Part shown: positions 46,544 through 63,069 of the stretch, piece after piece
Position numbering within the stretch: position 1 is the first letter of the stretch
Layout of the letters: the number at the start of each line of letters is the position of its first letter
Virus record (IMG/VR): IMGVR_UViG_3300034093_001431
Span: 1-63,168 of that record
Length of the DNA stretch: 63,168 nucleotides
Source of the DNA: a virus
Strand: one strand, 5' to 3'
The notes under the pieces: model-generated
Told to the model about the DNA's origin: nothing
The model's input: the letters and a program-made list of their open reading frames with translations, nothing else
Databases searched by the model: none
Made by a program: the position numbers and the translations under genes

Positions 46544-49500
46544 ATGCCGTGTAAGATAAAATACAAAGACAGGGATATGTCTTACGCAGAGTTCGCCTCA
46601 TCCATGTATGAAGGCGAGCTTGCTGCTTTAATAAACTCCGGCGTGATCGACTCCTCTAAGTTAAAGGGGAGCATGCCCGCGTCTATAACAGCGGCAATGT
46701 CTGCTGAGCCAGCACCGAAAGCTACCCCTGCCAAGTCGCCCCTGCCTCCTTTGAAATTAAAGGACCGGAAGGGTAAGCCGGTAAGGAAGGCGAGTGTAAA
46801 GGCGAAGATGAGCAACAACGCAGGCGCTGTCAACAGCGCGTTCTCTAACGTGTTCAAGCAGTTCCCTAACTTAACCATCAAGGTTGATGCTCAGTCATAT
46901 TTAAACGCATCGGCAGACCCCGCGTCTGTCCCTATATACGACTCGTATGATGACCTGATAGGGTTTACAAATGCGGGCGAGGTCTTTATAGACCCTTCGG
47001 TATTTGACCGTAGCTCAAGGATTGCAGCGCTATCATCTGTATGGTTAAAGGTAGCCGAGACCGTAGACCCTGCAATATACAAGTCCTTCATGAGCGAGCT
47101 TAAGAAGCCAGAGAACAGGTCTTACATAGACAGTGTAGAAGCTACGGGTAGGTTTACTGAAGAGAAAGATATCCTAAACCAAGCCGCGTCAAACATGATC
47201 AATGACGCAGCGTACCAGAGGGAGAACAGGACCCTTATACAAAAGTTTGCAGACTTCCTCAGGGATTTGTTTGGGATCAAGAGGGACTTTATGAAGATGA
47301 CTGCGAAGGATTTTGCGGAGACTATCGCAAAGGAACTTAACGGGAACTACCCGGTGTCTAGCCTGACATCAAAGCAGTTAGATGAGCTAGATCCTAGTGA
47401 TGCTAGGATATCTATAGATGGTGGTGTCCTTGATTACGAGGGTGGGGTTATGGCTAAGGCTGCCGATAAGGTGAGTGGGGTACGATTAATATCGCCTCAA
47501 AAGTTTAGCAGCTTCAAGACTATGCTTAGCTATATGTTCGGGGGTAAGTACTTCGGGAGGATAGACAACCTTAACAAGCAGAAGGATAGAGTTATAAACG
47601 CACGCATGCGCGAGCTTGATGGTAAGGTAAAGTCTTTCGCTAAACAATTTAAGAAAGAGTTTAAGGGCAAGTCTAATGCAGACATCAAGCGTGCTATTGA
47701 GTACATAAACGGCATCATGAGCTCCACGCAAAAGCGCAGCTGGGTTATGATGAATGCTAGGAATGGTGTACTGTCAGATGAGATGGTCGACATGATCCAG
47801 AGTATGCGAGATGACATAGACGCGATGTCTATGGAGGTGAACAAGTTCATCGACCCGCAGTCTAGACTGAGTGCTGTTATCAGTGGTAACCTAGGGTTCT
47901 ACATGAACCGAAGCTACGCCGTACATAACAACGGGTCTTGGAACAAGGCCATGTTCCCGTCTGGCATGAAGACCAGCGTATTCTCAGACAAGAGAACCCC
48001 GGAGATGCAGGCTGTGTACGACGAGGCGTTTGACTTCTTGAAGAACCAGTACCCTGAGTTATCATCGTCTGAGATTGACTTGATGTTAAAGCAGTTCTCA
48101 AAGGTCGACAAGGACGAGGCAGAGGATGCGTTTATAGAATCAAACGGTAAGGTAGGCAAGGCTTACTCAGACTTCTTGAAAGCTAGGAAGGATATGCCTG
48201 ACCAGATCCGCGCATTCCTTGGCGAGTACAAGGATCCGCTGACTAATTTCTACAACACTATGGCGAACATGATACAGTTCGCTGAGAATAGAAAGTTCTT
48301 GCAAAGTTTGGCTGACTTAGGGGACAACAAGATATTCTTTGACTCTCCTAGTAGCGAGTTCAATAGCGAGATAGCAGGGACCAAGAACGAGTACAGCCCA
48401 CTGTATGGTAAGTACACCTCGAAGGAGATTGCTGACTACCTGAGCGGGACAGACAAGATGTGGAAGATCCCTGTCTTCAGGAAACTCGCATCGGTCTGGA
48501 AGATGAACCAGACGGTTTTATCTCCAAGGTCTTGGGTAAGAAACTTCCATTCTAACTTCTTTATACACGTGTACAACGGTCACATATTCGGGCCCGTCAA
48601 GTACATGGCTAAAGGATTTTATTACGCAGGGAAGAACGTGGCTGACTCAGATGACTCGTACATACTTAGCCTTATGGAGGCTGGAGTGATCGGGTCTGGA
48701 GTTGAAGCGGGCGTGCTTCGCAGGGTTATAAAGGAGGCTTGGGGTGACATGGACGACATGACCCTTGACCCTGAGCAGAGATACAACTCTTTCACTGAGA
48801 GGTTAAACAGGGCTGTCAGCTGGACAAGAAATAAGTCTATAGATGTTTACGAGGCTGCAGATAACATCCACAAAATCATAGCGTTCGAGTCTGAAAAGTA
48901 TGACGTCAAGTATATGTTCCCGTCATTGAGCGAAAAGGAAATATTTGACATGGCCGTGGAAAGGTTTAAGGAGACCAACATTGTGTATGAGAAGGCGCCA
49001 GATATAATTAAGAGATTGTCTGCGTCGCCTATACTGGGTACGTTCCCTACCTTTACCGCAGAGGCCATGAGGATTGCCGTGACTATACCGATGCGTGCAG
49101 TCAAGGATATAAACGAAGGCGCTAAGAAGAAGAATGCTCGTCAGACCTTGGTTGGTCTTAAGAGACTGGTTGGATTCGCAGCAGGCGCTACCATGATGAA
49201 CGTGATAGCTAACCTAATCCTTTCAGGATTTGATCAGCCAGAGGAGGATGATGACGTGGCAAGGGTGCTGTACGAAGGGTCTCCGGAGTACGCCAAGAAT
49301 AGTAGCAAGATCATCATTAACAAGACCCCTAAGGGTTATAAGATGGTTGACTTGGACTGGCTTAATCCATTGAACTTTATTCAGAAGTCCTACAACACAT
49401 GGGAAAACACGGGCTCTTTTGAGCCGAACGACTCGCGCCTGCTGGCCGTGACGTCTACGCTTTTAGAATCCTTCATTGGCCCTGAAGCAGTCCTAGCTGT

Positions 49501-60610: not shown

Positions 60611-60879
60611 GCTGTTTTATTTATGGCGTATTTTATAGCCTTAGTGAGTGCCTTTCTTGTAGACTGTGACGCGTTCCTGAGGCCCGCGAAGGCCATCATC
60701 GCGCTCGTTACTGAGGCGAACTGAATAATCGCCCATGCAGCGAACTCGTACACGGTGTAGCCCTGTGACACTAGCCTGTACACCTCGTCATTTGTGTTGA
60801 ATTGACTGCCTTTAGGGTAGTCCCATGTTTCAGTCTCGATAGCGCTGATGTAGCGCTTGAGTATTTCGTTTGCTTTCAT
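60607..60879 (-). CDS. Hypothetical protein, 90 aa
   Basis: KANEILKRYISAIETETWDYP and a hydrophobic stretch (EFAAWAIIQFASVTSAMMAFAGL, about 44-66) that may span the membrane. ATGA overlap with the upstream gene. No family recognised. Confidence 0.65.
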   Translation of the reverse strand: MKANEILKRYISAIETETWDYPKGSQFNTNDEVYRLVSQGYTVYEFAAWAIIQFASVTSAMMAFAGLRNASQSTRKALTKAIKYAINKTA

Positions 60880-61136
60880 GCTTTTGATTTAAAATATATT
60901 TTAAGTAATTCAAGATCGCTAGGTTCATCCGATAAATTAGGCTCAGCACCTTGCGTATCGGAGAAGTATAACTCCTCTATGTATTCAAAGAAACTGTGTC
61001 TCTCAAAATAATCCATCTTGCGAAATAAACCCCTCGCTTGTCGGTGTTGACCATTAACCTTGCTTTCAAGGATGTAGTCAAAATATTCTTGCAAGGTGTT
61101 AAAGTTTAGTTCGGTGACATAACTTGGAATCCTCAT
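60876..61136 (-). CDS. Hypothetical protein, 86 aa
   Basis: RIPSYVTELNFNTLQEYFDYIL and ARGLFRKMDYFERHSFFEYIEE suggest a small helical bundle. Its mRNA 5' end would be produced by hammerhead cleavage 24 nt upstream of the ATG. No family recognised. Confidence 0.65.
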   Translation of the reverse strand: MRIPSYVTELNFNTLQEYFDYILESKVNGQHRQARGLFRKMDYFERHSFFEYIEELYFSDTQGAEPNLSDEPSDLELLKIYFKSKA

Positions 61137-61154: not shown

Positions 61155-61211
61155 GGTTAAGACGGGCGCTAATTGCACCCGTTTCGACTAATTAAGTCTC
61201 GTCAGTTAACC
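61155..61211 (-). ncRNA. Type I hammerhead ribozyme A
   Basis: Minus strand. Stem I: GGTTAA pairs with TTAACC. Core CTGACGA, stem II GACT/AGTC with a TAATT loop, then GAAA. Stem III is 7 bp, CGGGTGC with GCGCCCG, around AATTA. The cleavage triplet is GTC, with cut expected between 61161 and 61160. All invariant core bases (CUGANGA, GAAA, UH) are present. The upstream stop codon TGA is part of the CTGA core. It would leave a leader ending in A/T-rich sequence before the ATG at 61136. Confidence 0.93.
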
Positions 61212-61666
61212 TTGGCTAATTCTTGAGCTACAGTCCTTGCATATGCTGACTTCTGTGCATAGGTCCCTGCCTGTTGTGGGGCAGGTAATTCTATAACCTT
61301 GTCGAGGTCTACGCTGTAGATGGCCCGTTGATTATTAAGCATGCCGTACAGGGCAGCCTCTTCGATGCTATCAAACTGATAAGACACGTCTAGCACTAGC
61401 TTTCCGTTTTCCCACCACCCGCCGATGTGGGCGCCGTTATTCATCAGGTCCTTGCGGTTATTTTCGATGAAGGCATTGACCTCTGCGGTTATGACGTCTA
61501 CCTTGAGGTCCCGCTTGTACCTGTTGTAAACAGGCGACAAGTTAACGATGTGCTCGCTTTTTGCCTGAGAGGCGAACACGCCTGTTGTAGGCTTCCCTGT
61601 AGTCAGGCTGTAGCTTGCGCCTGTGCTGTCCACTAGGGACTCGATAAAAGATTGTAAGTTATTCAT
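61202..61666 (-). CDS. Hypothetical protein, 154 aa
   Basis: NNLQSFIESLVDSTGASYSL, then KSEHIVNLSPVYNRYKRDLKVDVI and GWWENGKLVLDVSYQFD. Alpha/beta protein with no family recognised. Its last codons (GTT AAC TGA) form the 5' strand of hammerhead A. Confidence 0.7.
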   Translation of the reverse strand: MNNLQSFIESLVDSTGASYSLTTGKPTTGVFASQAKSEHIVNLSPVYNRYKRDLKVDVITAEVNAFIENNRKDLMNNGAHIGGWWENGKLVLDVSYQFDSIEEAALYGMLNNQRAIYSVDLDKVIELPAPQQAGTYAQKSAYARTVAQELAKVN

Positions 61667-61676
61667 TGTATTTGGT

Positions 61677-61922
61677 TTATTGATAAATAATTCTTGTTAC
61701 TGTTGCGACCTCGTCACCTGTGTGTAGTTGATAGGCTATGCCGTCAGTTTGGTAGTGGACCGTGTCGCCTTTTTGAAGGGTTTCGCTAGCTATGAAGAAC
61801 GAAACGTCGCCGTCCTCAGCTATTGCTATCCTGTTTTTAACGTCCTCGACCTTCTCAAAGGTCTCCTTTTCGCACGAAGCGAGCGCTGTTGCTAGCATTA
61901 TTGCTGTTATATATCTTCTCAT
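61677..61922 (-). CDS. Phage-encoded lipoprotein, 81 aa
   Basis: RRYITAIMLATALASCEKE carries a signal peptide with lipobox LASC, so Cys17 should be lipidated. The mature part is an acidic beta-rich domain (GDVSFFIASETLQKGDTVHY, TGDEVATVTRIIYQ). Surface or periplasmic lipoproteins of phages often block superinfection or protect the receptor; that role is inferred. Its leader is generated by hammerhead B. Confidence 0.75.
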   Translation of the reverse strand: MRRYITAIMLATALASCEKETFEKVEDVKNRIAIAEDGDVSFFIASETLQKGDTVHYQTDGIAYQLHTGDEVATVTRIIYQ

Positions 61923-61930
61923 ATTTTAAT

Positions 61931-61980
61931 GGTTAAGACGCCTCTCGGCGTTTCGTCCATACAGGACTCGTCAGTTAACC
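61931..61980 (-). ncRNA. Type I hammerhead ribozyme B
   Basis: Minus strand. Stem I GGTTAA/TTAACC, core CTGACGA, stem II GTCC/GGAC with TGTAT loop, GAAA, stem III CGCC/GGCG closed by a GAGA tetraloop, then GTC. Cut expected between 61937 and 61936, leaving 14 nt before the ATG at 61922. The upstream gene ends with TAA inside stem I. At 50 nt it is the most compact of the three. Confidence 0.94.
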
Positions 61981-62220
61981 TATCACCAATTCGTACGCTT
62001 GGAACGACGGCTCGTACTCTCCGTGCTCAGCCATCATGTCGTCAAGTTCGTAGAACTCGGTGTTTCCGATAGCTTGTAACTCGTGAGAGACGGCTATTAT
62101 CGGGTGCTTATCTCCTCTTGTTGGGTGCTCGTAGAACGTGATGACCTGCCCGAGTGAGTTAGTCATTTCCCCTAGCTTGGTAGGGTTATAGGACATGAAT
62201 TTAGAATAACTTGTGTTCAT
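61975..62220 (-). CDS. Hypothetical protein, 81 aa
   Basis: NTSYSKFMSYNPTKLGEMTN, a beta core (SLGQVITFYEHPTRGD; HPIIAVSHELQAIG) and an acidic C-terminal half. Its stop codon lies inside stem I of hammerhead B, and its leader is produced by hammerhead C. No family recognised. Confidence 0.65.
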   Translation of the reverse strand: MNTSYSKFMSYNPTKLGEMTNSLGQVITFYEHPTRGDKHPIIAVSHELQAIGNTEFYELDDMMAEHGEYEPSFQAYELVIG

Positions 62221-62236
62221 TTTTGTAAAATTTAAT

Positions 62237-62292
62237 GGTTAAGACGGCCACAATTGTGACCGTTTCGAATATTTAATTCTCTTCAGTTAACC
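62237..62292 (-). ncRNA. Type I hammerhead ribozyme C
   Basis: Minus strand. Stem I GGTTAA (62292-62287) with TTAACC (62242-62237), core CTGAAGA (62286-62280), stem II GAAT/ATTC, GAAA (62266-62263), and stem III CGGTCAC with GTGGCCG around AATT, then GTC. Cut expected between 62243 and 62242, 22 nt before the ATG at 62220. The upstream TGA stop is the TGA of the core. Stem sequences differ from A and B with base-pairing kept, which is covariation. Confidence 0.94.
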
Positions 62293-62474
62293 TGTTCTAG
62301 GTTGACGCGGTAGTCATATCCGACACCGCCCGCCTCTTTGCCGTCCCAATTGTCTAGGTTATGCACTTCGCACAGGGCCTGTACACACTTTCTCGCGTCG
62401 CCATAAGAGGCGTAGAGGAGGTTTATTGAGTCAGGCTTCTGCATGGATGATAGGACTACTTTGTAATTTGTCAT
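62283..62474 (-). CDS. Hypothetical protein, 63 aa
   Basis: Start at 62474 (MTNYKVVLSSM) follows an A/T-rich leader; the longer frame has a poor N-terminus. Small alpha/beta protein with NLLYASYGDARKCVQALCEVHN and a C-terminal strand (YDYRVNLEQVN). First gene of the minus cluster. Its last codons form the 5' strand of hammerhead C. Confidence 0.7.
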   Translation of the reverse strand: MTNYKVVLSSMQKPDSINLLYASYGDARKCVQALCEVHNLDNWDGKEAGGVGYDYRVNLEQVN

Positions 62475-63069
62475 GATAGTAAAATTTAATTGGTTAGCGG
62501 GACATGGGGCGCACGATGCCCCTTGTACGTTAACATGTGACCTACTCACATACCCCGTATCTCTTGCGTCGCCTCCCTGTCTATTTAACAGGCTCGGGTC
62601 AGTTTAGCTAATTAAAACGCTGTAGTATGTTTCCTACATTATCGGGCTGACTCCCGTCCTTCGCTTGCGCTAAGGCTAACCATCTTGAGTTACCGTGAGA
62701 TGGTGAAAGCACGTTTTATGTCTTCTACGTTTTACCCGATATCACATCGATGCTACACGTAAGGGTTGACTACTCAGTCCCTGTCGTTTGACGTCGGCAA
62801 AGATGGGGTCATCGTTTTTAAATTTCCAAATAAATTTTACATTAACCTTCTGAAAGGCGCAATTTATGCGGGTGAAATTTTTATTTTCTCAGTGTTTACG
62901 AGGGATGCAGGAGGGGAAAACACACTAAACCATTGCAAACACAGGTGGTTCAGGGGGCGCAAAGTAACACAGGTGAGCGCAATTTTGGTACAGGTTCCGT
63001 GTCAACAGGGGAGTAAAAGGGTGCCGATGACAGGGTGAAAGTAACTAGCGAGGGAGGAGGGGAGGAGGG
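62475..63069. other. Noncoding leader/control region, left side of circle junction
   Basis: No convincing gene. Bases 62475-62700 are the leader of the minus cluster and can fold into a large RNA closed by GGTTAGC (62681-62675) and GCTAACC (62498-62492). Bases 62900-63069 are G-rich on the plus strand and end in a purine tract with five runs of three or more G around 63052-63100. With 1-574 this forms a noncoding region of about 1.17 kb between divergent gene blocks, likely origin and early control. Confidence 0.55.

Follow-up and report, generated by a model that had tools for sequence, protein, structure and literature searches.

Three type I hammerhead ribozymes lie within 1.14 kb in the gene gaps of a leftward cluster of small genes in the window, that is, the whole 63,168-base stretch of viral DNA analysed here, and we consider them probably (at a rough probability of 0.77) to be cis-cutting processors of a polycistronic early phage transcript, which would insulate the mRNAs of neighbouring genes and set a standard 5' leader. 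Their anatomy, their conservation, their rule of position and their sense orientation are observed directly; all three are co-directional with the genes, as described for clustered phage hammerheads, and share the minus-strand layout GGUUAA - CUGANGA - stem II - GAA - stem III - C^UUAACC (the caret marks the predicted cleavage site):

62237..62292, minus strand: HH1, type I hammerhead, GGUUAA CUGAAGA GAAU-UAAAU-AUUC GAA ACGGUCAC-AAUU-GUGGCCGU C^UUAACC, predicted cleavage after C62243
61931..61980, minus strand: HH2, type I hammerhead, GGUUAA CUGACGA GUCC-UGUAU-GGAC GAA ACGCC-GAGA-GGCGU C^UUAACC, predicted cleavage after C61937
61155..61211, minus strand: HH3, type I hammerhead, GGUUAA CUGACGA GACU-UAAUU-AGUC GAA ACGGGUGC-AAUUA-GCGCCCGU C^UUAACC, predicted cleavage after C61161

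Stem I, the open or entry stem, has 6 bp in each ribozyme, stem II has 4 bp and a 5-nt loop (UGUAU in HH2) and stem III has 8, 5 and 8 bp; stems II and III vary in sequence among the three and keep their pairing. By the rule CUGANGA...GAAA plus an NUH triplet, all three possess a type I core (CUGA(A/C)GA, GAAA and a GUC triplet). A generic scan with the stem sequences left free returned exactly three matches in the 63,168 bases, namely HH1-HH3, and four versions of the scan with scrambled cores returned none in 1.17 Mb, both strands included. The minimum free energy structures predicted by RNAfold hold all three hammerhead stems in each element (z = -3.5 for HH1, -2.0 for HH2 and -3.6 for HH3), that of HH2 with a few extra flanking pairs and a less clear ensemble. 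The upstream stop codon is a TGA inside the CUGA core in HH1 and HH3 and a TAA in GGUUAA in HH2, and the predicted cleavage sites precede the next ATG by 22 (HH1), 14 (HH2) and 24 nt (HH3). The initial annotation had described three full type I hammerheads with a common GGUUAA/UUAACC stem I, each beginning in the upstream stop region and cleaving 14-24 nt before an ATG, and this description is borne out by the sequence, the scan and a covariance model of the family (E about 1e-15).

This covariance model, R1, was built from 40 phage hammerheads with the window excluded and gave E-values of 4.4e-15 (HH1), 1.4e-15 (HH2) and 6.2e-16 (HH3), scores which, the training set consisting of motif-selected relatives, speak for family membership and not for activity. 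A fourth R1 match of 19 bits (47151-47180, plus strand) falls inside coding sequence and was discarded as chance. Rfam yielded no match in the window at gathering scores. Hammerhead_1 (RF00163) has the same core, stems and type I topology, and HH2 and HH3 align with it end to end, but they score 29.3 and 24.8 bits, below its cut-off of 34 bits, and HH1 goes unlisted even at E 10. RAGATH-1-hammerhead (RF03152), the top Rfam match of HH1, is likewise type I with a similar stem I and loop geometry; its scores of 31.2 (HH1), 28.9 and 19.2 bits are far under the cut-off of 56.3, and the extra 5' hairpin of that family corresponds to coding sequence in the window. The check by covariance models proposed in the initial annotation is therefore divided, since R1 recognises the three elements at E 6e-16 to 4e-15 and all three miss the Rfam cut-offs, an outcome which the annotation had named as counting against it.

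The elements lie at the start of the leftward small-gene cluster, among the following features:

62491..62870, minus strand: noncoding leader ahead of the cluster's first gene, predicted to be structured and conserved in two relatives, ending CUAACCA
62283..62474, minus strand: 63-aa ORF upstream of HH1, its TGA stop inside the HH1 CUGA core
61975..62220, minus strand: 81-aa ORF between HH1 and HH2 (phrog_11770, unknown function), starting 22 nt past the HH1 site, its TAA in the HH2 stem I strand
61677..61922, minus strand: 81-aa ORF after HH2, starting 14 nt past the HH2 site, with a weak lipoprotein-signal match below the Pfam cut-off
61202..61666, minus strand: 154-aa ORF, second gene between HH2 and HH3, its TGA stop inside the HH3 CUGA core
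60876..61136, minus strand: 86-aa ORF after HH3, starting 24 nt past the HH3 site, first gene of the long uncut remainder of the operon

Cleavage at the three sites would thus give a leader joined to the 63-aa ORF, the 81-aa ORF on its own, the second 81-aa ORF together with the 154-aa ORF, and the rest of the operon. One gene between each pair of hammerheads, as the initial annotation implied, does not agree with the two ORFs enclosed by HH2 and HH3, and the 'single-gene mRNAs' foreseen there reduce to one single-gene excised piece in the array. Hammerheads serve part of the operon only and most of its genes are without one. The cluster probably comprises early genes, because, besides being leftward and made of small genes, it also encodes an Erf-like ssDNA annealing protein.

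The end of the noncoding leader, CUAACCA, resembles the leaders that follow hammerheads. Its RNA shows 64 consensus pairs, 16 of them with compensatory changes, in three sequences (the window at 62870-62491, minus strand; L232, 273-600; L233, 1601-1995), and Rfam gave no match for it in the window. In the relatives G011 and G017 this leader ends as a tRNA-like T-arm and acceptor stem directly before the first start codon. Hairpins resembling tRNA T-arms also occur in gene gaps of the window at 59914-59859 (minus strand) and around 6977 (plus strand) (GTGGGTTCGACTCCCGC closed by GCACG/CGTGC; GCAGGTTCGAGTCCTGC); ARAGORN found no tRNA, and these two hairpins are possible RNase P/Z processing signals.

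The proposed function gains from the wider family of phage hammerheads. IMG/VR was scanned with the same stem I (set A, at least 120 stretches) and with stem I left free (set B, at least 120 stretches), and the matches listed amount to 276 distinct ribozymes in 191 loci. Among these listed matches stem I is exactly 6 bp in 285 of 300 (~95%; 136/142 in set A and 149/158 in set B), an A precedes it in 96-100% and follows it in 93-96% in both stem I classes, loop II has 5 nt of the form U-N-A-N-U in both classes, and the stem I sequences of set B are diverse with their pairing retained. The flanking A's and the UNANU loop are kept in both classes as a possible tertiary contact between loop II and stem I would require; loop II of HH2 reads UGUAU. 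In 40 relatives, chosen by a scan that required pairing, 13 of 16 pairs have two-sided changes, and slid controls, with 30-37% of cells paired, show that register matters. The stem covariation claimed initially can accordingly be seen across the family, but the table is not independent proof of it since the scan had demanded pairing.

The same matches reveal how strictly these ribozymes are placed. Among those listed, an upstream sense ORF of at least 40 codons ends at the ribozyme in 245 of 281 unique cases, about 80% of the assigned upstream stops are located from -9 to +12 relative to the core C (mostly a stem I TAA, a TGA within CUGA or a TAG at the edge of stem I), and an ORF-opening ATG lies downstream in 263 of 281, usually 19-28 nt past the predicted cleavage site. 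ORFs of at least 60 codons ending at the ribozyme are in sense in 216 and in antisense in 32 of 303 listed matches. As far as sequence can tell, placement between a sense stop and a sense start appears to be the rule across the 281 relatives among the matches listed, and this conclusion is supported.

Set B uses Shine-Dalgarno sites, which are located in the leader upstream of the ATG. Unlike in that set, no Shine-Dalgarno motif stands among the top enriched hexamers in the leaders of the phages with a GGUUAA stem I, which would fit a Bacteroidota host. Leaders of these GGUUAA phages in which no ribozyme was detected contain UUAACC 67 times versus 16 expected and UAACCA 81 times versus 19 expected, an excess due partly to ribozymes overlooked because of an additional base behind the core and partly to core-less sites. 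We infer that UUAACCA is the wanted start of the leader and that GGUUAA follows from it by pairing; its enrichment even where a ribozyme is lacking would explain why stem I is fixed in these phages. One extra base between CUGANGA and stem II was seen in L098, L102, L096, L113 and L087 (e.g. CTGATGA-T-GGCT..AGCC-GAAA), all of which had escaped the strict scan.

Given this rule of position and the type I orientation, we propose that HH1-HH3 would cut the early transcript in cis during its synthesis. The upstream mRNA would keep its stop codon and the two hairpins of stems II and III at its 3' end, finishing in a 2',3'-cyclic phosphate, and the downstream mRNA would gain a 5'-OH and a short, open, A-rich leader starting UUAACCA. 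The hammerheads would in this manner insulate the mRNAs of neighbouring genes, each provided with the same 5' leader regardless of the gene upstream. Cleavage in the cell, and an effect of it on mRNA stability and translation, may be presumed on these grounds. The genes served encode small proteins of unknown function, and therefore no phenotype follows from the proposal. The interpretation given in the initial annotation is thus partly supported.

The overlap with stop codons invites a different thought. Ribosomes at the overlapping stop could block the folding of the ribozyme, so that the elements might regulate expression instead of simply processing the mRNA, and it can be speculated that a ribosome finishing the upstream gene unfolds the ribozyme, cleavage then reporting upstream translation and coupling the levels of neighbouring genes. 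About 80% of the assigned stops among the matches listed, and all three in the window, lie inside the core or at most 9 nt from it, as such a switch would demand; nevertheless, the core itself supplies TGA and stem I often TAA as stops, and the overlap can be mere compactness of phage genomes, so that we regard this alternative as unlikely. Slightly less credit is due to circularisation, in which the common stem I would let a piece excised between two hammerheads refold its ends and self-ligate into a circular mRNA, comparable to viroid-like satellites and retrozymes. Stem I is indeed identical in HH1-HH3, such that the UUAACC...GGUUAA ends of each excised piece can pair, and in the GGUUAA phages it is alike both within and between genomes where stems II and III are not. 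However, in the matches obtained with a free stem I, similarity within a genome is raised for stems II and III as much as for stem I, a non-specific pattern that points to duplication instead of a ligation constraint, and on which circularisation was rejected as the reason for the common stem I; several arrays, e.g. L154 and L157, carry copies with incompatible stem I, and Perreault et al. sought circular or spliced products and found none (PMC3088659).

Two further alternatives are considered highly improbable. Copy number and position of the hammerheads differ among relatives, and orthologous genes can be without one, as would be expected of remnants or freely spreading repeats devoid of a function in mRNA processing; yet very divergent phages, in which the sequences of stems II and III are near-random, have retained the pairing, the core, loop II and the flanking A's, and the placement between stop and start is exact. 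Least credible of all is a DNA-level or terminator signal, in which GGTTAA...TTAACC would serve as a promoter or a site for a regulator, or the stem III hairpin would terminate transcription. TTAACC is indeed present in leaders that lack a hammerhead, but stem III is not followed by a U-run, other phages retain the fold with wholly different stem I sequences, and the catalytic core would be superfluous.

Cis processing of the early mRNA thus remains the preferred reading, and it can be placed in a phage context. The terminase, portal and primase-helicase encoded in this 63-kb virus record match phage families, and the large terminase is nearest to those of phages of Flavobacterium, Cellulophaga, Tenacibaculum and Maribacter (best matches 25-26% identity), which probably makes the window phage one that infects Flavobacterium-like bacteria. 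The GGUUAA class turned up in just 2 contigs among the genomes of ~85,000 host species, and this rarity suggests that its phages are lytic rather than integrated. G011 and G017 are the closest relatives (TerL 72% identical) and carry three and four copies, respectively, in the corresponding region; the maximum number in one contig is nine. A cassette made of a 57-aa gene and a hammerhead is flanked by two hammerheads in G011 and occupies a different place in G017. Such moving cassettes raised the idea that hammerheads serve as joints at which genes are shuffled; it was rejected, since neighbour conservation across hammerhead gaps (57% and 52%) is not clearly below that across the remaining gaps (64% and 69%; anchor identity at least 70%). 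G011 and G017 also contain a repeated gap element formed by a GC-rich hairpin (AGCCCCGCCAC..GTGNGCGGGG), then TTTGGCGGTA, an A/T-rich leader and the ATG, with several copies per genome; these hairpin repeats were rejected as hammerhead sites and have no Rfam match either:

L232, 960-1040, 1394-1475, 1745-1815, 2770-2840 and 4225-4295: GC-rich gap element
L233, 2272-2345, 2628-2706 and 4875-4952: GC-rich gap element

Single hammerheads of the same build occur in cultured phages, namely in four elemovirus isolates of Flavobacterium sp. BAL314 and in Cellulophaga phage phi19:3, and no RNA feature is annotated at them in the elemovirus and phi19:3 records inspected:

NC_055854, 16304-16361, minus strand: elemovirus hammerhead (further elemovirus records NC_062741, MT497065 and MT497066)
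NC_021789, 21769-21817, minus strand: hammerhead of phi19:3, a phage of Cellulophaga baltica

These single copies, together with the position rule drawn from the 281 copies among the matches listed, make the idea of mRNA processing directly testable.

Relatives of the window phage offer a further lead. Tracing the UUAACC leaders without a ribozyme uncovered core-less sites, that is, gene gaps with a hairpin and GGUGUC^UUAACC and no catalytic core, and we lean somewhat towards the view that hammerheads of these relatives act in trans or at long range, the one ribozyme of the first gap cutting several core-less gaps downstream. If true, a trans-acting hammerhead would here govern a natural regulon based on RNA processing. 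In the contigs designated T1 a full hammerhead occupies the first gap, and its arms, GGUUAA and ACACC, match the core-less sites exactly:

L021, L023, L024, L041, L044, L060, L118, L248, L251, L252, L260, L261: T1 contigs with ribozyme and sites
L271: T1 contig that begins at a site

There are 32 unique T1 sites in these 13 marine contigs. Core-less sites matching the arm of the ribozyme in their own genome number 26 over 5 arm nt versus 0.8 when arms are swapped between genomes, and 16 over 6 arm nt versus 0.2 with swapped arms, counts that are not all independent as several contigs are near-duplicates; in the relatives, complementarity of core-less sites to the ribozyme of the same genome is thus beyond chance. 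A search of IMG/VR for the site only (hairpin GCCC-N4-GGGC plus GGTGTCTTAACC) retrieved 13 contigs. The fetched locus includes a matching ribozyme in 12 of them; the stretch of the remaining one, L271, starts at the site and contains none. Most of the 32 T1 sites are followed by an ATG at a distance of 16-33 nt, all 32 have the A flank, and a stem of at least 4 bp abuts the site in 30 of them versus 31.5% of random positions. GGTGTCTTAACC occurs 31 times in eight whole contigs, always within a single array and on a single strand, and the reversed pattern has no occurrence there. GGUGUC precedes 42 of the 49 UUAACC leaders in T1 contigs. Upstream of the gene starting MSFIKIKLPTVE, a full hammerhead is found in five contigs (L023, L044, L060, L118 and L260), whereas L024 has a core-less site there.

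In RNAcofold predictions the cleaved ribozyme and the site assemble into a canonical hammerhead in which the two hairpins abut stem III; this trans fold is obtained for T1, T2 (L001) and T4, and not for T2 (L054) or T3. In T2 (L001 and L054) the site UCCGUGUC, ~300 nt from the predicted cleavage site of the ribozyme and 21 nt before an ATG, has a 7-base match to the arm (ACACGGA with UCCGUGU), and the ribozyme's own 3' strand, CUUUGUC or CAUUGUC, has none. The T2 sites would hence not be remnants, because they match the arm and not the ribozyme's own 3' strand, as expected from complementarity and not from descent. Seven of the nine matches to the 15-base T2 site alone are in contigs without a ribozyme in the fetched stretch, and for that reason the weight of T2 rests on the location of the site. 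T4 (L153) has a different stem I (GCUAUA/UAUAGC) and a 6-base arm match. Judged by their sequences, the independent arm and site pairs of T2 and T4 would support action in trans. T3 (L098, L102 and L110), in which one of three site matches is in a contig without a ribozyme in the fetched stretch, supports it weakly, because co-folding fails to predict the trans form. An interrupted stem III as a common trait of all trans-capable ribozymes was discarded, being wrong for T1 and reaching only p = 0.017 in a 2x2 test; stem III of T1 is a bistable 6-bp design (ACACCG/CGGUGU or ACCGCC/GGCGGU). L091 (G047) has about five gaps of the form hairpin-NGGTC^TTAACC with only a 3-base match to the arm of the contig's single hammerhead, and a better-armed ribozyme may reside on the missing part of that genome. 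In the window phage the leftward cluster is free of core-less GTC-TTAACC sites, the only other occurrence being on the plus strand, and no isolate with a trans array was found.

The initial annotation knew of hammerheads in phages but of no comparable serial intergenic array. In 2011 Perreault et al. described prophage hammerheads clustered on either side of one gene or a small block of genes, with a triple arrangement at ardA, and proposed that they produce operon- or gene-length mRNAs; three tandem arrangements were cut in vitro, and the triple one of A. tumefaciens also in E. coli (PMC3088659). Since clustered phage hammerheads, the gene-length mRNAs proposed for them and their cleavage had all been reported there, the array in the window is not novel and represents an already known type, the new lead being the core-less sites in relatives. 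The array shares with the prophage clusters several hammerheads that flank genes or short blocks in phage DNA and the same proposed role, and differs in occurring among free, probably lytic relatives of flavobacterial phages, in being all type I with a near-constant stem I, and in the rule of stop overlap. HHphage of the haloviruses HF1/HF2 is a comparable hammerhead 13 nt upstream of the start codon of an early gene in a lytic virus, but with a variant core and an archaeal host (PMC3088659). The role of prokaryotic hammerheads was considered an open question in a review of 2017 (PMC6155905), and according to reviews natural hammerheads are cis-acting and trans forms engineered (PMC6155905, PMC12192606, PMC6412130). 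The core-less sites, if cleaved, would represent the first natural multi-target hammerhead known to us within the open-access literature, an earlier trans case being possible elsewhere. Their nearest counterparts are engineered trans hammerheads and the discontinuous Clec2 hammerhead, in which catalytic and substrate strands are likewise apart, the Clec2 ribozyme differing in having a single site in one RNA (PMC6155905, PMC12192606, PMC6412130).
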